Positions 9,907-17,212 of a stretch of DNA of 37,447 bases are shown here, piece by piece. The stretch's first letter is position 1. The number at the start of each line of letters is the position of its first letter. The position numbers and the translations under genes are program-made. Source of the DNA: Bradyrhizobium sp. (GTDB taxonomy: Bacteria > Pseudomonadota > Alphaproteobacteria > Rhizobiales > Xanthobacteraceae); assembly GCF_030693485.1 (NCBI RefSeq), contig NZ_JAUYAN010000013.1:1-37447 (forward strand). Reading direction: 5' to 3'. The notes under the pieces were generated by a model. It did not search any database, had not been told where the DNA came from, and was given only the letters and a program-made list of their open reading frames with translations.

Positions 9907-10428
9907 TCAGCCGCTCTGACGCTCGAACGCCGCCTTCAGGCGATTGAGCTGCGGCACCAACGGATTGCCGATCGGGGCGCGTTCGGCCGCGGGCGCATGG
10001 ATCGTGGTATCGAGGCGGCGGACCTTGGTCTGCAGCGCCATCGAGCGGCCAATCAACTCCTGCAATTGCAGCGGCAGCTTTGCGATGATGTCGTCCGGGC
10101 CGGGGTCGGCGGCCGAGAGCTTGACCTTGGTCTTTTCGCGGTTGGCCTGGGTCAGCGTCATCTCGCCTTCCTTGACCGCTCGGTGCAGCAACAGCCATGA
10201 CGCCAGTTGCATAAGGCGTGTGGTCAGCCGCATGCTTTCGGTGGCGTAAGTCAGGCTGACGGAACGGTCGAGCGCCTTCGCCTCGGTGCGGCCGTCGCCG
10301 TCGAGATAGGCCGCGGTCTCCTCGACCAGATCCATGCCTTCGCGGAACAAGGTTCCGAACGCCGCCGAGTTGGTGAGCCTCTCGCTGAACTGCACGAGAG
10401 CGGTTTCGCCTTGCGAACGGTCGGACAT
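9907..10428 (-). CDS. rcdA: RcdA-like protein (DUF1465), regulator of CtrA degradation
   Basis: A 173-residue all-helical soluble protein of the DUF1465 family. In Caulobacter the family member RcdA works as an adaptor with CpdR and PopA that brings the cell-cycle regulator CtrA to the ClpXP protease. Seen here are the family's long helices (VSLTYATESMRLTTRLMQLASWLL, residues 57-80, split by Met and Leu heptads) and MTLTQANREKTKVKL (90-104), plus a loosely structured C-terminus. The ATG at 10428 has GAGGCG ahead; an upstream in-frame ATG at 10446 adds six residues without a better ribosome site. It lies just downstream of the candidate small RNA at 10559-10685 on the same strand and upstream of a DMT transporter. 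No clear paired TTAA CtrA site is visible in front of it. Confidence 0.88.
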   Translation of the reverse strand: MSDRSQGETALVQFSERLTNSAAFGTLFREGMDLVEETAAYLDGDGRTEAKALDRSVSLTYATESMRLTTRLMQLASWLLLHRAVKEGEMTLTQANREKTKVKLSAADPGPDDIIAKLPLQLQELIGRSMALQTKVRRLDTTIHAPAAERAPIGNPLVPQLNRLKAAFERQSG

Positions 10429-10558
10429 GGTTAACGCCTCACGCAACTGTTCAAGCCGTCGCTGGCCGCCGGCTTATGATGAACAAATCATTACGCGCCG
10501 GCCGACGAGAGTCCAGCCGCAAGCGTTTTTATGGTTTCCAGCGAGGTACCGCGACGCC

Positions 10559-10590
10559 AAAAAAAAGAGCCGCCATTTCTGGCGGCTTTT
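10559..10590 (-). terminator. Intrinsic terminator of the candidate small RNA (possibly active both ways)
   Basis: A perfect 8-bp stem AGCCGCCA / TGGCGGCT with a 4-base loop (10568-10587) is followed on the minus strand by C and then eight T (10566-10559). On the plus strand the same stem is followed by TTTT only. It is a strong minus-strand terminator where no protein gene ends, which points to a non-coding transcript. Confidence 0.93.
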
Positions 10591-10685
10591 GAAGTTGATA
10601 ACAGGGAGGCGTCAAACAGAGTGGACAGGAGCCACTCGGTGTCCAAACAAGGACGATTTAAGTCATAATCGAGAAAGCTTAATGG
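10559..10685 (-). ncRNA. Candidate sigma-EcfG-controlled small RNA, about 125 nt
   Basis: No gene covers 10429-10875, yet the minus strand holds a complete transcription unit: a perfect EcfG promoter at 10692-10716, then about 125 nt, then a strong intrinsic terminator. The RNA can fold into an early hairpin (CGATT at 10671-10667 with AATCG at 10658-10654), a middle hairpin (GGACA with TGTCC, or alternatively GTGG with CCAC, which exposes a CUCCU loop near 10631-10625), a single-stranded part with CCTCCC near 10608, and the terminator stem. An exposed CUCCU is an anti-Shine-Dalgarno motif common in alphaproteobacterial regulatory RNAs. No start codon with a ribosome site and a reading frame lies inside it. 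The layout recalls the stress-induced GsrN RNA of Caulobacter, but homology is not shown. The 5' end is estimated from the promoter. Confidence 0.72.
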
Positions 10686-10691
10686 ACCGTA

Positions 10692-10716
10692 AACGAACGG
10701 TTTTGTTGACGGTTCC
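10692..10716 (-). promoter_or_regulatory. Sigma-EcfG (general stress response) promoter of the candidate small RNA
   Basis: On the minus strand GGAAC (10716-10712) is followed after exactly 16 bases by CGTT (10695-10692), a perfect match to the known alphaproteobacterial EcfG/SigT/RpoE2 consensus. The start of transcription would be near 10685, placing it in front of the hairpins and terminator at 10559-10685 and not near any start codon. Confidence 0.75.
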
Positions 10717-10875: not shown

Positions 10876-11067
10876 CTACGTCTTGAAAAAACTGTTCGCC
10901 GCATCCTTCGACGCGCGCTTTTTGGTCGTCGCCGCCTGCAGCCGCTCGATCTCCTGTTGCATCAGCGCGATGCGTTCGGCCAGTTCCTCGACCGACAACA
11001 GCGACAGGTCCTGCCCGATCTCGTGGGTGACTTTCTTTCTCGGTCTGTCGTCGTCCTCGGCGGCCAT
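10876..11067 (-). CDS. DUF1192 small protein
   Basis: A 63-residue protein of the DUF1192 family. It begins MAAEDDDRPRKKVTHEIGQD, then has one amphipathic coiled-coil helix SVEELAERIALMQQEIERLQ (25-44), and ends in a Lys/Ala-rich tail with the family's SFFKT terminus. Its function is unknown; the small size and single coiled coil suggest a partner protein. It is divergent from the quinone oxidoreductase gene with a 102-bp shared promoter region, an arrangement I recall as usual in rhizobia. The ATG at 11067 has only a weak ribosome site (GGGGT). Confidence 0.85.
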   Translation of the reverse strand: MAAEDDDRPRKKVTHEIGQDLSLLSVEELAERIALMQQEIERLQAATTKKRASKDAANSFFKT

Positions 11068-12266: not shown

Positions 12267-15167
12267 ATGGCTGATTGCGGAGAACTGACATTGCGTCTGA
12301 TCAGGTGCCTTGCGCCCCTCGCGCTGGGCCTCATGATTGTTGCCGCCGCGCCTCCGGCGCGCGCTGTCGACGCGGTCAGCGTTCGCAGCGACGCGCCTGC
12401 GATCGATCTTACCGCAATCCTGAATCATCAGCGCAGCGACGCCGACCGCATCCAGGTTTCCACCGCACCGGGCACCGACGGCATCGTCCGCCGCATCGAA
12501 GTCCGCGCCCGCGAAGGCGGCCAGAACTGGGTGGTGTTCGCGCTCGCCAACAACACCGACGACCAGCTCGACCGCCTGATCGTGGCGCCGCATTATCGCA
12601 TCGTGTCGTCGGGCCTGTTGTGGCCCGACCTCGGACTGTCGCGCATCGCCACCATCACGCCCTCGACCGGCGACCGTCCCGAACGGCAGGAGAGCGCGAC
12701 CGCGGACATCTTCCGCATCACGCTCGATCCCGGCGCCGTCATCACCTTCGTCGCGGAATTGCGCACCGATAAATTGCCCCAGCTCTATCTGTGGGAGCCG
12801 GACGCCTACAAGGACAAGGTCAATTCGTTCACGCTGTACCAGGGCATCGTGATCGGCATTTCCGGCCTGCTGGCGCTGGTGCTGACCATCCTGTTCGTGG
12901 TCAAGGGCAGCATCATGTTTCCTGCCGCCGCCGCACTGGCATGGGCGGTGCTGGTCTATATCGGCGTCGATTTCGGCTTCTGGGGCAAGGTGCTCGACAT
13001 GTCGAACAACGCCGAGCGCGTCTGGCGCGCGGCGGGCGAAGCGATCCTGGCCGCGACGCTGCTGGTGTTCCTGTTCGCCTATCTCAACCTCAGCCGCTGG
13101 CATGTACGCTATTCCCACATCACCGTGGGCTGGCTGACCTTCCTCGGCTCGCTGGTGGCGCTGGCGCTGTTCGATCCCGCGGTCGCCTCCGGCATCGCGC
13201 GGATGTCGCTGGTGCTGATCGCGTTCGCCGGTTTTGCCCTCATCGTCTATCTCTCGACCCACGGGTTCGATCGCGCGGTGTTGTTGATCCCGACCTGGTT
13301 CCTCCTCGTGGTCTGGGTGATTGCGGCCGGCATGACGGTGGCGGGCTCCGTTACCAACGATATCGTCGGTCCTGCCCTGCTCGGCGGCCTCGTGCTGATC
13401 GTGATGCTGATCGGATTTACCGTCATGCAGCACGCCTTCGCGGGCGGCGGCGCCACCACCGGCGTGGTCTCCGACGTCGAGCGCCGGGCGCTGGCACTGA
13501 CCGGCTCCGGCGACCTGATTTGGGACTGGGACGTTTCGGCCGACAAGGTCTTCACCAGTCCCGAGACCGAGCAACTGCTCGGCCTCAAGCGTGGCATGCT
13601 GGAAGGCCCCGCCGCGAAATGGCTCGAGGTGCTGCACCCGCTCGACCAGGACCGTTTTCGCGCGGCCCTCGACAGCGTGCTCGACCAGCGCCGCGGCCGG
13701 CTGGTACAGGATTTCAGACTGCGCACGCCGGACGGCCACTTCATGTGGTTCGCGCTGAAAGCGCGCCCAGTGGTCGGGTCCGACGGCGAGGTTTCCCGCG
13801 TGGTCGGAACGCTGACCGACGTCACCGAAGCCAAGAACGCCGAAGAGCGCATGCTGCACGATTCCGTGCATGACAATCTCACCGGCCTGCCGAACCGGAA
13901 ATTGTTCATCGACCGCCTAGGGGCCGTCGCCAACTTCGCCAAAACCATCCCGAACCTGCGGCCGACGCTGATGGTGATCGATCTCGACCGCTTCAAGCAA
14001 GTCAACGATTCCGTCGGAATCGCGGTCGGCGATTCCATCCTGCTGACGCTGGCGCGGCGGCTGACCCGCATCCTCAAGCCGCAGGACACGCTGGCCCGGC
14101 TGGCCGGCGACCAGTTCGGCCTGATCTTGATGTCGGAGCAGGATCCGGCGCGCATCACCGCTTTCGCCGAGACCATCCGCAAGACCATCCGCGCCCCGAT
14201 CGCCTTCAACGACCGCGAGATCTTCCTGACCGCCTCGATCGGCCTCGCACTGTCCGATCCGCAGACGCAATTGTCCGACGAGATCATCAAGGATGCCGAA
14301 CTGGCGATGTACCATTCCAAGCGGATCGGTGGCGACCGCATCGACGTCTACAAGCCGGCGATGCGCGCGCGCAAGACCGACCGGCTAACGCTGGAATCCG
14401 AACTACGCCGCGCCATCGAGCGCGAGGAAATCACCATCCTGTATCAGCCGATCGTGCGGCTGGAAGATCGCTCGATCGCCGGCTTCGAGGCTCTGGCGCG
14501 CTGGGACCATCCGAAGCTCGGCCGGATGTCGCCGGTGGAATTCATCTCGATCGCCGAGGAAATCGGCCTGATCGTCGATCTCGGCATGTTCGTGCTGGAC
14601 CAGACCGCCAAACAGCTGGCGATCTGGCAGCGCGCGATGCGTTCGCGCGAGCCGATCTTTGCCAGCGTCAACGTCTCGTCGCGCCAGTTGCTGCGGCACG
14701 ATCTGATCCACGACATCCGCACCGTGCTGTCGCGCTCCTCGGTGGCCCGCGGCACGCTGAAGCTGGAATTGACGGAATCGCTCGTGATGGAGAATCCGGA
14801 GCACGCCGCCCAGATGCTGACGCGCATCCGCGAACTCGGCACCGGGCTGTCGCTGGACGATTTCGGCACCGGCCATTCCTCGCTGGCCTATCTGCAGCGC
14901 TTCCCGTTCGACACCATCAAGATCGACCAGTCCTTTGTGCGCACCACCAGCCGGGGCACCCGCCCGGTGATCCTGAAATCAATCATCGCGCTGGCGCACG
15001 ACCTCGGCATGGACGTGGTGGCGGAAGGCGCTGAGACCGACTCCGACGCGGTTGAGCTCTATCAGTTGGGCTGCGAATACGCCCAGGGTTTTGCCTTCGG
15101 CGAGCCGATGGACGCCGACGCCGCGATGCGGCTGTTGACGGAAGAGCGGCTGGAGGCGGCGAGCTAG
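12267..15167 (+). CDS. Seven-helix membrane sensor with PAS, degenerate GGDEF and EAL domains
   Basis: A 966-residue c-di-GMP signalling protein. Order: signal sequence (1-33), periplasmic domain (34-185), seven transmembrane helices (about 190-388), PAS/PAC (405-525), GGDEF-type domain (530-700), EAL domain (710-960). The GGDEF signature is AGDQF (613-617): the first Gly and the catalytic Glu are changed, so cyclase activity is unlikely. The EAL domain keeps FEALARW (740-746), NVSS (802-805), ELTES (834-838), LDDFGTG (863-869) and AEGAET (919-924), so it should hydrolyse c-di-GMP. The broken cyclase domain may serve as a GTP-sensing regulator, as known for other such hybrids. The periplasmic-plus-seven-helix layout resembles 7TMR-DISM receptors. 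The start at 12267 lacks a clear ribosome site; nearby in-frame starts cannot be excluded. Confidence 0.93.
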   Translation: MADCGELTLRLIRCLAPLALGLMIVAAAPPARAVDAVSVRSDAPAIDLTAILNHQRSDADRIQVSTAPGTDGIVRRIEVRAREGGQNWVVFALANNTDDQLDRLIVAPHYRIVSSGLLWPDLGLSRIATITPSTGDRPERQESATADIFRITLDPGAVITFVAELRTDKLPQLYLWEPDAYKDKVNSFTLYQGIVIGISGLLALVLTILFVVKGSIMFPAAAALAWAVLVYIGVDFGFWGKVLDMSNNAERVWRAAGEAILAATLLVFLFAYLNLSRWHVRYSHITVGWLTFLGSLVALALFDPAVASGIARMSLVLIAFAGFALIVYLSTHGFDRAVLLIPTWFLLVVWVIAAGMTVAGSVTNDIVGPALLGGLVLIVMLIGFTVMQHAFAGGGATTGVVSDVERRALALTGSGDLIWDWDVSADKVFTSPETEQLLGLKRGMLEGPAAKWLEVLHPLDQDRFRAALDSVLDQRRGRLVQDFRLRTPDGHFMWFALKARPVVGSDGEVSRVVGTLTDVTEAKNAEERMLHDSVHDNLTGLPNRKLFIDRLGAVANFAKTIPNLRPTLMVIDLDRFKQVNDSVGIAVGDSILLTLARRLTRILKPQDTLARLAGDQFGLILMSEQDPARITAFAETIRKTIRAPIAFNDREIFLTASIGLALSDPQTQLSDEIIKDAELAMYHSKRIGGDRIDVYKPAMRARKTDRLTLESELRRAIEREEITILYQPIVRLEDRSIAGFEALARWDHPKLGRMSPVEFISIAEEIGLIVDLGMFVLDQTAKQLAIWQRAMRSREPIFASVNVSSRQLLRHDLIHDIRTVLSRSSVARGTLKLELTESLVMENPEHAAQMLTRIRELGTGLSLDDFGTGHSSLAYLQRFPFDTIKIDQSFVRTTSRGTRPVILKSIIALAHDLGMDVVAEGAETDSDAVELYQLGCEYAQGFAFGEPMDADAAMRLLTEERLEAAS

Positions 15168-15288
15168 AGCCGGGTACGGTTGGTACACTTGTGCTGCTCC
15201 ACTACTAATGCTCGTACCCCGCGAAAGCGGAGGGCTCCTGTGCGCCGCGGCCTTTCGATTTCCATCAGTTGCGCCTCTGGAATACTGG

Positions 15289-15310
15289 ATCACCCGCTTT
15301 CGCGGGTGAT
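15289..15310. repeat. Intergenic hairpin, part of a dispersed repeat
   Basis: A perfect 9-bp stem ATCACCCGC / GCGGGTGAT with loop TTTC lies in the gap between two convergent genes. The flanks (CTGGAATACTGG before it, GACACC after it) match a repeat form often seen between Bradyrhizobium genes. It follows the EAL gene by about 120 bp; it has no U-tract. Confidence 0.6.
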
Positions 15311-15350
15311 GACACCTTGAGGTGTTGCGGACATCTCGCAACGAATGACC

Positions 15351-15599
15351 TCACTTCATCTTCTTGAACCGCACGCTCTTGCCATCCGCCAGCCTCGTCG
15401 CGATATAGCCGCCGGCGAGGCAGGCTTCCCGCTGCGGCATCTTTTCCTGCGGGCTGCGCAGCGTTTCCCACCACGAGGCGCGGTGCGCCGCGCGCGGCAG
15501 TGCGGCGTCGATGATCTCCTCGATCTTTTCGAAGCTCAGCACGAATTCAGGCAGCGTCTGCTTTTTCAGGTAATCGCGCAGCGGGTCGTAGTCGTTCAC
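15351..15599 (-). CDS. Small conserved protein of unknown function
   Basis: An 82-residue soluble protein. I do not recognise a named family with certainty. Visible: MNDYDPLRDYLKKQ at the start, then VLSFEKIEEIIDAALPRAAH, then HRASWWETLRSPQ and a C-terminal AGGYIATRLADGKSVRFKK. This order (Leu-rich helix, LP, WW, basic strand ending VRF) recurs in small uncharacterised bacterial proteins. The start is GTG at 15599 with GAGGA six bases ahead; the ATG two bases upstream is out of frame. It is divergent from the diguanylate cyclase gene and convergent with the EAL gene, so it sits between two c-di-GMP genes without visible link. Confidence 0.72.
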   Translation of the reverse strand: MNDYDPLRDYLKKQTLPEFVLSFEKIEEIIDAALPRAAHRASWWETLRSPQEKMPQREACLAGGYIATRLADGKSVRFKKMK

Positions 15600-15727
15600 A
15601 TTTGTCCTCGGTAAAGGTGGAACTTTGCCGGTTCCGGCAACGAATCGTTAACTCATTACCGCGTCGCTGTCGCCACTTAAGCCTGCGGCAACGAAACCCG
15701 TGCATGCAGGAGTATTGGGAGCGAACC

Positions 15728-17212
15728 ATGCGATTTGGATGGCGCAAGGAGGTGGCCAGGCGGCCCTGGCGCCTGTCGGTGAAATTGCTCATCGTCTCGT
15801 CGGTGGCGACGATGGTCGGCTTCTCCGCGATTTGCGCCAACGTCATGCTCGACATGCGCCGCGGCGAGGAAGCGCTGGCGCGCCAGATGCTGGAGAACCT
15901 CGCATCCGGCGTCGATTCCGATATCAGCCGCAATATCGAACTCTACGACCTGTCCCTGCGCGCCGCCGCCAGCGGCATGATCCTGCCGGAGATCAAGCAG
16001 GTCAGCAAACCGATCCTGCACCTGATCCTGTTCGACCGTGCCGCAGGCGCCAAGCACTTCGGCGCGCTTCAGGTGTTCGATGCCGCGGGACGGCTGACGA
16101 TCGATGCCTCGACGCTCGATCCGCCGCCGGAAAATCGCGGCGACGAGGAGTATTTTCGGGTCCATCGGGAAAATCCCGATACCGGCCTTTTCATCAGCAG
16201 GCCGATGCTGCACCGCGGTGCCTACGCCATCGTGCTCAGCCGGCGCATCACCGGCGAAGACGGAAGCTTTCTCGGCGTGGTCGCGGGCTCGATCCGCTTC
16301 AGCTATTTCCACGATCTGTTCGGCCGCCTGAGCCTCGACCCGGACGACACCATCACCGTGCTGCGCCGCGACCGCACCATCATCATGCGTCGACCGTTCG
16401 ACCTCGATATCATCGGCAGGAATCTGCCGGACCGGACCAGCTGGAATCCGGCCAACATGAATAGCGGATGGTATGCGGGGGCGGGCCCGGTAGATCCGAT
16501 ACCGCGGCTGTGGGTGAGGCATAACGGTACCGGTCCGTTCATCGTCGTGGTCGGAAAGCCGCTGGAAAGCATCCTGAACCTGTGGCGGACGGAAGCAATC
16601 CGGATCGCCGCGATCATGGCGGCGCTGATCCTGTTCGTGCTCGGCGTGACACTGTTTCTCGCTCGCGAAATCGGCCGCCGCGCGCAGGCCGAGGACAAGC
16701 TTGAGGAGCTCGCGACAACCGACGCGCTCACCGGATTGACCAACCGGCGCAAGTTCGACACCTCGATCGACCTAGAATGGCGCCGCGCCACGCGGCAGAA
16801 AACCCCGATCGCGATGCTGATGATCGATGCCGACCATTTCAAGGTCTACAACGACACCTTCGGACATCAGGCCGGCGATGAGGTGCTGATCGGCATCGCC
16901 ATCTGCATCTCGGATTCGCTGCGGCGCGCCGGCGATTGCGCCGCGCGTTACGGCGGCGAGGAGTTTGCCGTGCTGCTGCCGGCGTTCTCGGCCGAGCAAG
17001 CGCTGGCGGTGGCCGAAGCCATCCGGCTGAAGGTCGAGCAATGGTCCGAGCACACCAGCGTCAGCATCGGCGTCGCCAGCCTGACGCCCGACGTCACCCA
17101 GGAATGTTCCGAACTGATCGGAGCCGCCGACAAGGCGCTTTACGCCGCCAAGGCCGGCGGCCGCAACCGCTGCGCGGTGGCGTCGGTGCCGAAATTGTCG
17201 CTGGTAGCTTAG
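15728..17212 (+). CDS. Membrane diguanylate cyclase with periplasmic Cache-like sensor and GGEEF domain
   Basis: A 494-residue enzyme making c-di-GMP from two GTP. Transmembrane helix 1 at 18-38, a large periplasmic sensor at 39-288 of double-Cache/PDC appearance (EEYFRVHRENPDTGLFISRP at 140-159), helix 2 at 290-312, then a GGDEF domain at 325-485. The active site is intact: GGEEF at 409-413, preceded five residues earlier by RAGD (400-403), an allosteric I-site RxxD for product inhibition. The start ATG at 15728 has GGGAG seven bases ahead; a frame continues upstream but without a ribosome site. The gene ends 7 bp before the convergent galU. What the sensor detects is not visible; such domains commonly bind small organic ligands. 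Confidence 0.94.
   Translation: MRFGWRKEVARRPWRLSVKLLIVSSVATMVGFSAICANVMLDMRRGEEALARQMLENLASGVDSDISRNIELYDLSLRAAASGMILPEIKQVSKPILHLILFDRAAGAKHFGALQVFDAAGRLTIDASTLDPPPENRGDEEYFRVHRENPDTGLFISRPMLHRGAYAIVLSRRITGEDGSFLGVVAGSIRFSYFHDLFGRLSLDPDDTITVLRRDRTIIMRRPFDLDIIGRNLPDRTSWNPANMNSGWYAGAGPVDPIPRLWVRHNGTGPFIVVVGKPLESILNLWRTEAIRIAAIMAALILFVLGVTLFLAREIGRRAQAEDKLEELATTDALTGLTNRRKFDTSIDLEWRRATRQKTPIAMLMIDADHFKVYNDTFGHQAGDEVLIGIAICISDSLRRAGDCAARYGGEEFAVLLPAFSAEQALAVAEAIRLKVEQWSEHTSVSIGVASLTPDVTQECSELIGAADKALYAAKAGGRNRCAVASVPKLSLVA

Follow-up and report, generated by a model that had tools for sequence, protein, structure and literature searches.

The window analysed here, a stretch of 37,447 nucleotides from Bradyrhizobium sp. 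(contig NZ_JAUYAN010000013.1), carries on its minus strand a DUF1192 gene (10876-11067; Pfam PF06698, E 7e-27), an rcdA-type gene downstream of it (DUF1465; 9907-10431; Pfam PF07323, E 2e-58), and between the two, on the same strand, a small RNA (sRNA) gene. This gene gives a covariance-model match to BjrC1505 (Rfam RF02356) on the minus strand at 10700-10560, scoring 135.7 bits versus a gathering threshold of 50 and spanning the whole model (positions 1-140), and it is the only RF02356 match in the source genome. It shares sequence, structure and full model length with BjrC1505, and nothing essential differs. The minus-strand gene at 10559-10655 is a real small RNA of a family already in Rfam, and the RNA itself is not new. 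Madhugiri et al. 2012 is the source paper for BjrC1505, with the RNA reportedly detected by RNA blot in Bradyrhizobium. The Rfam entry for RF02356 describes BjrC1505 as an alphaproteobacterial sRNA; a table in PMC6337395 also enters it for Herbaspirillum, a betaproteobacterium, an assignment that is possibly spurious.

A first-pass annotation of the same DNA had proposed a small RNA gene that stands alone and ends in a terminator of its own, and in which nothing protein-like fits. Both points hold, the former through the RF02356 match, the covarying stems and the stem followed by T8, and the latter through a Pfam scan of 33 frames of the window (short frames excluded), where an 80-aa frame on the sRNA strand and a 264-aa frame on the opposite strand are both without a match. 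Near the sRNA gene, at 12267-17209 of the window, two adjacent cyclic-di-GMP enzymes (GGDEF-EAL and GGDEF) are also encoded.

The comparison with relatives draws on 158 loci, of which 58 came from searches of the source genome, its taxonomic family and its order, and 100 were chosen across genera and families among the better-scoring matches listed, weaker members thus being missing. Column frequencies were taken from 151 of them (158 minus one with a differing anchor and six duplicates), a MAFFT alignment from 147 of the 151 (L016, L020, L023 and L025 were left out), and a model-fitted alignment from 100 loci with 101 matches. The sRNA region folds at -39.4 kcal/mol (z -3.61), with none of 200 shuffles equally stable, and the structured body seen in the first pass is confirmed both by this stability and by stems that covary in relatives.

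All parts of the body lie on the minus strand. Hairpin 1 (GUCC/GGAC; 10641-10654) has a UUGUUU loop and is paired in 94.1% of cells, and hairpin 2 (GAGUGG/CCACUC; 10619-10637) has CUCCU in its loop and is paired in 99.1%; each has both-sided change at all 6 of its model pairs. The intrinsic terminator (10559-10587) consists of a perfect 8-bp stem (10587-10568) with a GAAA loop, then a single C and T8 at 10566-10559, and helix 3, which it forms, covaries at 8 of 9 pairs; the perfect stem followed by eight T was correctly read from the sequence, save that one C stands between them. Covariation is strong in both hairpins and in the terminator. Both-sided changes occur at 14 of 21 pairs in the MAFFT alignment of 147 sequences, with the structure hand-written from the sequences (shuffled mean 5.6, 0/500 as high), and at 20 of 21 pairs in the model-fitted alignment of 101 matches (shuffled 8.7, 0/500 as high), an alignment that leans towards the structure and includes one chance match (L047:546-642). 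Stem covariation in relatives, which had been suggested as a check, is found on two alignments. An RNAalifold consensus was tried as the model structure and rejected; it held only 8 pairs, MAFFT having misaligned hairpin 1 and the terminator, and the hand-written structure took its place.

Between hairpin 2 and the terminator lies an unpaired, near-invariant linker, UUUGACGCCUCCCUGU (10601-10616, minus strand), which resembles an anti-Shine-Dalgarno sequence. Among the 101 aligned matches, identity is 97-100% at 14 of its 16 positions and 94% and 92% at the remaining two, and GACGCCTCCCTGT is exact in 151 of the 158 loci; the linker UUUGACGCCUCCCUGU is altered in Sinorhizobium and in a Methylobacterium record. 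The proposal that CUCCU sits in a loop and acts on ribosome sites stands in part: CUCCU is in the loop of the 10637-10619 hairpin, but this loop is variable in class-level loci outside the order, and the invariant element, a C-rich anti-ribosome-site stretch and the best conserved part of the RNA, is the linker CGCCUCCCUG.

The covarying structure begins at about 10654, and the primary transcript (the BjrC1505 core) probably runs on the minus strand from about 10655, one base 5′ of hairpin 1, to 10559, a length of 97 nt, since a conserved CtrA-type box and a -10-like TATGAC sit just 5′ of this predicted start. Over the first 44 or so positions of RF02356 (window 10700-10657), several consensus pairs are non-standard here, and the same stretch carries the box and the -10-like element; the model probably includes promoter DNA at its start. 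Of the hairpins read in the first pass from about 125 nt (at least two), those corresponding to hairpins 1 and 2 and the terminator covary, but a hairpin using the first 40 nt is probably wrong, because that stretch behaves as a promoter and several of its Rfam pairs are non-standard. The 5′ end at about 10685 that the same annotation implied is probably wrong as well, with the conserved box and -10-like element in this stretch and the covarying structure starting only at about 10654.

RF02356 is present in 218 of 248 genomes of the taxonomic family, 245 of 297 of the order and 30 of 289 of the class; 14 control genomes were without a family match. The 30 class-level genomes comprise three from the same order (the source genome included) and 27 from outside it, 12 of the 27 scoring above gathering, and the class-level loci used here come from 20 of the 30 genomes, two of these in the same order. 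An exact-core scan of named genomes gave, among the matches listed, Bradyrhizobium, Afipia, Nitrobacter, Mesorhizobium, Phyllobacterium, Roseibium, Bosea, Ancylobacter, Chelatococcus and others. Five genomes (G037, G032, G078, G097 and G235) have two or three family matches each, not one.

The gene neighbourhood is widely shared: of 158 loci, 135 have the DUF1192 gene upstream and 155 have rcdA (DUF1465) downstream, in both cases on the strand of the sRNA, and the gap between sRNA and rcdA ranges from 104 to 1170 nt. At class level rcdA was detected at 11 of 20 loci; one of the other nine is cut by a contig end, and at four (L280, L281, L282 and L284, from other orders) a different large frame starts 315-381 nt after the linker, with the RNA, the linker and the CtrA-type box kept. 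By eye, the downstream frames at these four loci are similar to each other and resemble a Cys/Met metabolism enzyme. Because the RNA is kept without rcdA in some genomes, it is best read as trans-acting and not simply as an rcdA leader. A further element, TATGGTTTCC on the plus strand (window 10530-10539), recurs between the sRNA and rcdA in several Bradyrhizobium-type loci, and is possibly part of rcdA's own promoter.

The CtrA-type box TTTACGGTCCATTAAG (TTWA-N7-TTAA; 10678-10693, minus strand) lies over the -35 region and, in its TTTA-N7-TTAA form, differs by one mismatch from TTAA-N7-TTAA; one CtrA consensus is given as TTAA-N7-TTAAC (PMC7200025). With at most one mismatch, TTAA-N7-TTAA is found in 155 of the 158 loci (55 perfect), starting 45-110 bases before the linker, versus about 5% in order-1 resampled sequence and, when six 80-bp segments elsewhere in these loci serve as controls, 0-19 of 158; the counts come from related, non-independent genomes and from the better-scoring matches. 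It is likewise present in 17 of 17 same-genus loci, and in 19 of 20 class-level loci versus 1 of 20 in a control segment. The columns of 151 loci give the consensus RTTWAC-N6-TTAAGCTTTC, followed by TATTAC at a distance of 26 bases from where the box starts, the position at which the source genome has the -10-like TATGAC (10662-10667, minus strand). A loose -10-like pattern at +25 to +27 occurs in 88 of 151 loci, a figure that stands without a control, and this looseness is counted against the CtrA-promoter reading. The family consensus TTWAC-N6-TTAAGC with at most one mismatch is expected 0.03 times in the window, the pattern having been drawn from the family and the estimate being post hoc. 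CtrA is encoded in the source genome, at 84% identity over 226 aa to the Caulobacter CtrA sequence. The sRNA promoter looks likely to be controlled by CtrA, a bacterial cell-cycle regulator, and not by EcfG; we infer its CtrA dependence and start site, as we do the antisense action and targets discussed below.

The first-pass annotation had instead read a perfect EcfG promoter, GGAAC-N16-CGTT (10692-10716, minus strand), driving a general-stress small RNA that would be a functional counterpart of Caulobacter GsrN. The motif is present, perfect, at 10716-10692, but its frequency is no higher than chance: GGAAC-N16/17-CGTT has 100 sites in the genome versus 116 for the reversed pattern, and 0.66 are expected in the window, where 50 of 100 shuffles carry one. 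Its conservation had been named beforehand as a point on which the proposal would turn, and in relatives it is lost, being perfect in only 2 of 158 loci. Some signal does favour it: 20 of 158 loci carry the motif with no more than one mismatch, where the rate in resampled sequence (2.2%) would give about 3.5. Among the class-level loci, 2 of 20 carry it at this level. The CGTT overlaps the left edge of the CtrA-type box, a constrained half-site (the G of CGTT falls on a column with 44% G and 42% A among 151 loci), and an RNA started from this motif would have its 5′ end some 30 nt ahead of the covarying body. Nor is the locus near stress-response genes: sigma-factor, NepR and response-regulator families are absent from the 33 window frames scanned with Pfam, and the sRNA has DUF1465 and DUF1192 as its neighbours, not ecfG, nepR or phyR, adjacency to which was used to choose GsrN candidates outside Caulobacteraceae, the Bradyrhizobium candidate having been chosen for its proximity to the stress locus (PMC5869019). 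GsrN resembles BjrC1505 as a stand-alone alphaproteobacterial RNA with a C-rich pairing element, but its described features – an EcfG/SigT promoter, a 5′ loop with six C and a typical position near the stress locus, if distal in C. crescentus (PMC5869019) – are none of them conserved in BjrC1505, whose loops are UUGUUU in hairpin 1 and CUCCU-containing in hairpin 2; the two are set apart by description, not by sequence. The proposed counterpart of GsrN fails on both locus and loop, and we regard a stress RNA transcribed from GGAAC-N16-CGTT as very unlikely. Given its number in the genome, the shuffled windows and the related loci, we reject the motif as the main promoter and consider it a chance match. 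GGAAC at the matching offset is nonetheless somewhat above controls (9 of 158 loci; 0-2 at each of four control offsets), which makes a second, lineage-local promoter conceivable, with CtrA acting everywhere and an EcfG promoter added in some Bradyrhizobium-like species. The own genus fits such a double input, in that the EcfG-like motif is perfect in 2 of 17 genomes and within one mismatch in 11 of 17, nine of these differing only at the first G, while the CtrA-type box is in all 17; yet the near-matches are explicable by shared ancestry, and the spacing would lengthen the RNA by a 5′ portion that looks like promoter and does not covary, which leaves this arrangement quite unlikely.

A CtrA-type box beside rcdA raises a different alternative. 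In Caulobacter, rcdA is itself reported among the CtrA-activated genes and the CtrA-bound start sites (PMC4433202, PMC4287350), and the box could therefore serve rcdA, with the RNA a cis-acting leader or attenuator that starts at the box and whose terminator sets read-through into the gene. The near-universal order of sRNA and rcdA on one strand agrees with this, as do, in Sinorhizobium, a CtrA motif predicted 5′ of a start site of rcdA (PMC3616915) and, in agrobacteria, several rcdA start sites with CtrA sites further upstream than in Caulobacter (PMC10469942). We nevertheless judge it unlikely. The terminator stem and T-run are kept across the family, the gap to rcdA varies more than tenfold within the range given above, and rcdA went undetected near nine class-level loci, four of which have another large frame in its place. 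Furthermore, S. meliloti CtrA ChIP-seq is described as placing CtrA in the rcdA promoter region with rcdA unaffected by CtrA depletion (PMC4433202), and in Hyphomonas the RcdA gene is reportedly not under CtrA control. A box of this kind does not by itself separate activation from repression, and its position near -35 permits either sign, so CtrA could also repress the sRNA, which would then be made when CtrA is absent. The column frequencies in 151 loci show no separate recognisable -35 conserved between the box and the -10, a pattern that fits activation better, and repression seems to us improbable. Activation of a trans-acting RNA by CtrA is the reading that we carry forward.

The S. meliloti record bears on the published CtrA signal near rcdA. 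Its DUF1192-DUF1465 gap holds a diverged homologue of the sRNA (34.8 bits with our own model and 27.2 with the Rfam model, below gathering) with a perfect TTAA-N7-TTAA box and an altered linker that retains CUCCCUGUU. We infer that part of the S. meliloti signal may belong to a BjrC1505-type RNA. Counting against this assignment are a second TTAA-N7-TTAA box in the same record (L330:1839-1853), which lies between the sRNA homologue and rcdA and hence nearer to rcdA, and the activation and binding of rcdA by CtrA in Caulobacter. The record itself (L330; CP090106.1), of 3.7 Mb and labelled plasmid pSymB, has rcdA and rpmE and so may be a mislabelled chromosome.

Candidate targets were sought in 41 genomes as sites complementary to 10 bases of the linker followed by ATG. 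The pattern gave mostly unrelated genes (90 loci with sites examined, 58 with a usable frame), and the most recurrent ortholog group was a protein of 142-143 aa with two CBS domains, with a site before the start in 6 of the 41 genomes (G000, G011, G014, G017, G035 and G038, the G011 copy having an internal stop); three related solute-binding-type proteins and then one pair were the next groups. The ribosome-binding site of the CBS gene bears the linker-complementary CAGGGAGGCG at L347 (G000:C266:5385-5900) and in the orthologs L350, L356, L363 and L442, in several genera. Within the family, complementarity of at least 7 bases precedes the CBS start in 33 of the 47 genomes that have the sRNA and in none of the 6 that lack it, versus 2 of 66 for DUF1192 and 29 of 187 for mixed genes (the 15 listed include 4 uncaught CBS starts and 6 rcdA starts); in this comparison the six genomes found by the pattern are circular, the genomes lacking the sRNA are few and may form a clade, and shared ancestry may contribute. 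Outside the family the figure is 3 of 29 parsed (30 loci), with no pattern there. The two-CBS-domain gene is the best candidate target, and a lead with real confounders.

Pairing with rcdA was also considered. Its ribosome-binding region, GTGAGGCGTTAACC, about 15 bases before the start at 10431, is complementary to the linker over 7 bases (10 with one G-U), and at least 7 bases of such complementarity (GAGGCGU before the start) occur in 49 of 68 family loci, a feature that is not kept across the order. Over 155 loci the rcdA-linker duplex has a median of -16.0 versus -12.1 for shuffled sequence, 17% of shuffles reaching it; the DUF1192 control gives -13.4 versus -13.1 shuffled. With the duplex only weakly above shuffled, we do not claim rcdA as a target of the sRNA. 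In the ctrA leader of the source genome, inspection by eye found no strong match to the linker.

Among the known RNAs that are close by description is Caulobacter CcnA (PMC8959179), which like BjrC1505 is non-coding and presumed to be CtrA-activated, and which directs a C-rich pairing loop at ribosome-binding sites; it differs in lying at the replication origin and in having a CCCC loop, and the comparison is one of description, not homology. Six non-coding RNAs are also listed among the CtrA-bound cell-cycle transcripts of Caulobacter (PMC4287350), and together with CcnA they give a CtrA-driven C-rich RNA a precedent. The Sinorhizobium sRNAs EcpR1 and GspR (PMC4414408, PMC5928217) similarly belong to the alphaproteobacterial cell-cycle network, but are at other loci (downstream of pleD-divK, and between SMc03844 and SMc03845) and have other pairing motifs, and the available portions of those two papers mention no CtrA-type promoter for either. 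Membership in suhB/MmgR (RF00519), SorX (RF02784) or SorY (RF02651), which share a CUCCCU element followed by a GC-rich terminator, is not proposed; all score below gathering (suhB 22.1 versus 41 in the window; at best 31.3 for suhB, 32.4 versus 46.6 for SorX and 34.8 versus 111 for SorY), and unrelated families score alike in the window.

Taken as a whole, we think it probable that this is a BjrC1505 gene activated by CtrA, giving a trans-acting RNA of about 97 nt whose linker blocks ribosome-binding sites. Phosphorylated CtrA would bind the TTTA-N7-TTAA box at 10693-10678, replacing a normal -35, and recruit RNA polymerase to TATGAC, such that the RNA (10655-10559) would be made in cells with active CtrA. 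Judging from the anatomy, hairpins 1 and 2 and the terminator would display the single-stranded linker GACGCCUCCCUGU, which would mimic the anti-Shine-Dalgarno sequence of the ribosome, with specific flanks added, and would pair in trans with G-rich ribosome-binding sites (complement ACAGGGAGGCGUC) and block or lower translation. The broader proposal, about which our confidence is evenly balanced, is that BjrC1505 forms an RNA arm of the CtrA circuit in Rhizobiales and part of the wider Alphaproteobacteria, its linker masking ribosome-binding sites of mRNAs that in the Bradyrhizobium family include that of the CBS-domain protein.

As comparative results from sequence, the predicted CtrA-type promoter and the near-invariant linker are strong, and the accessible part of the open-licence literature holds nothing on the control or function of BjrC1505, these two features included. 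The locus also illustrates how an EcfG motif of textbook appearance can arise by chance next to the real promoter. If the proposal is true, a small RNA is fired by CtrA from beside rcdA, the gene of CtrA's own degradation adaptor, which would explain how CtrA is bound upstream of Sinorhizobium rcdA without controlling it. If the CtrA reading is right, BjrC1505 would be a very broadly conserved RNA within the CtrA network, and a role for it in the cell cycle becomes testable.
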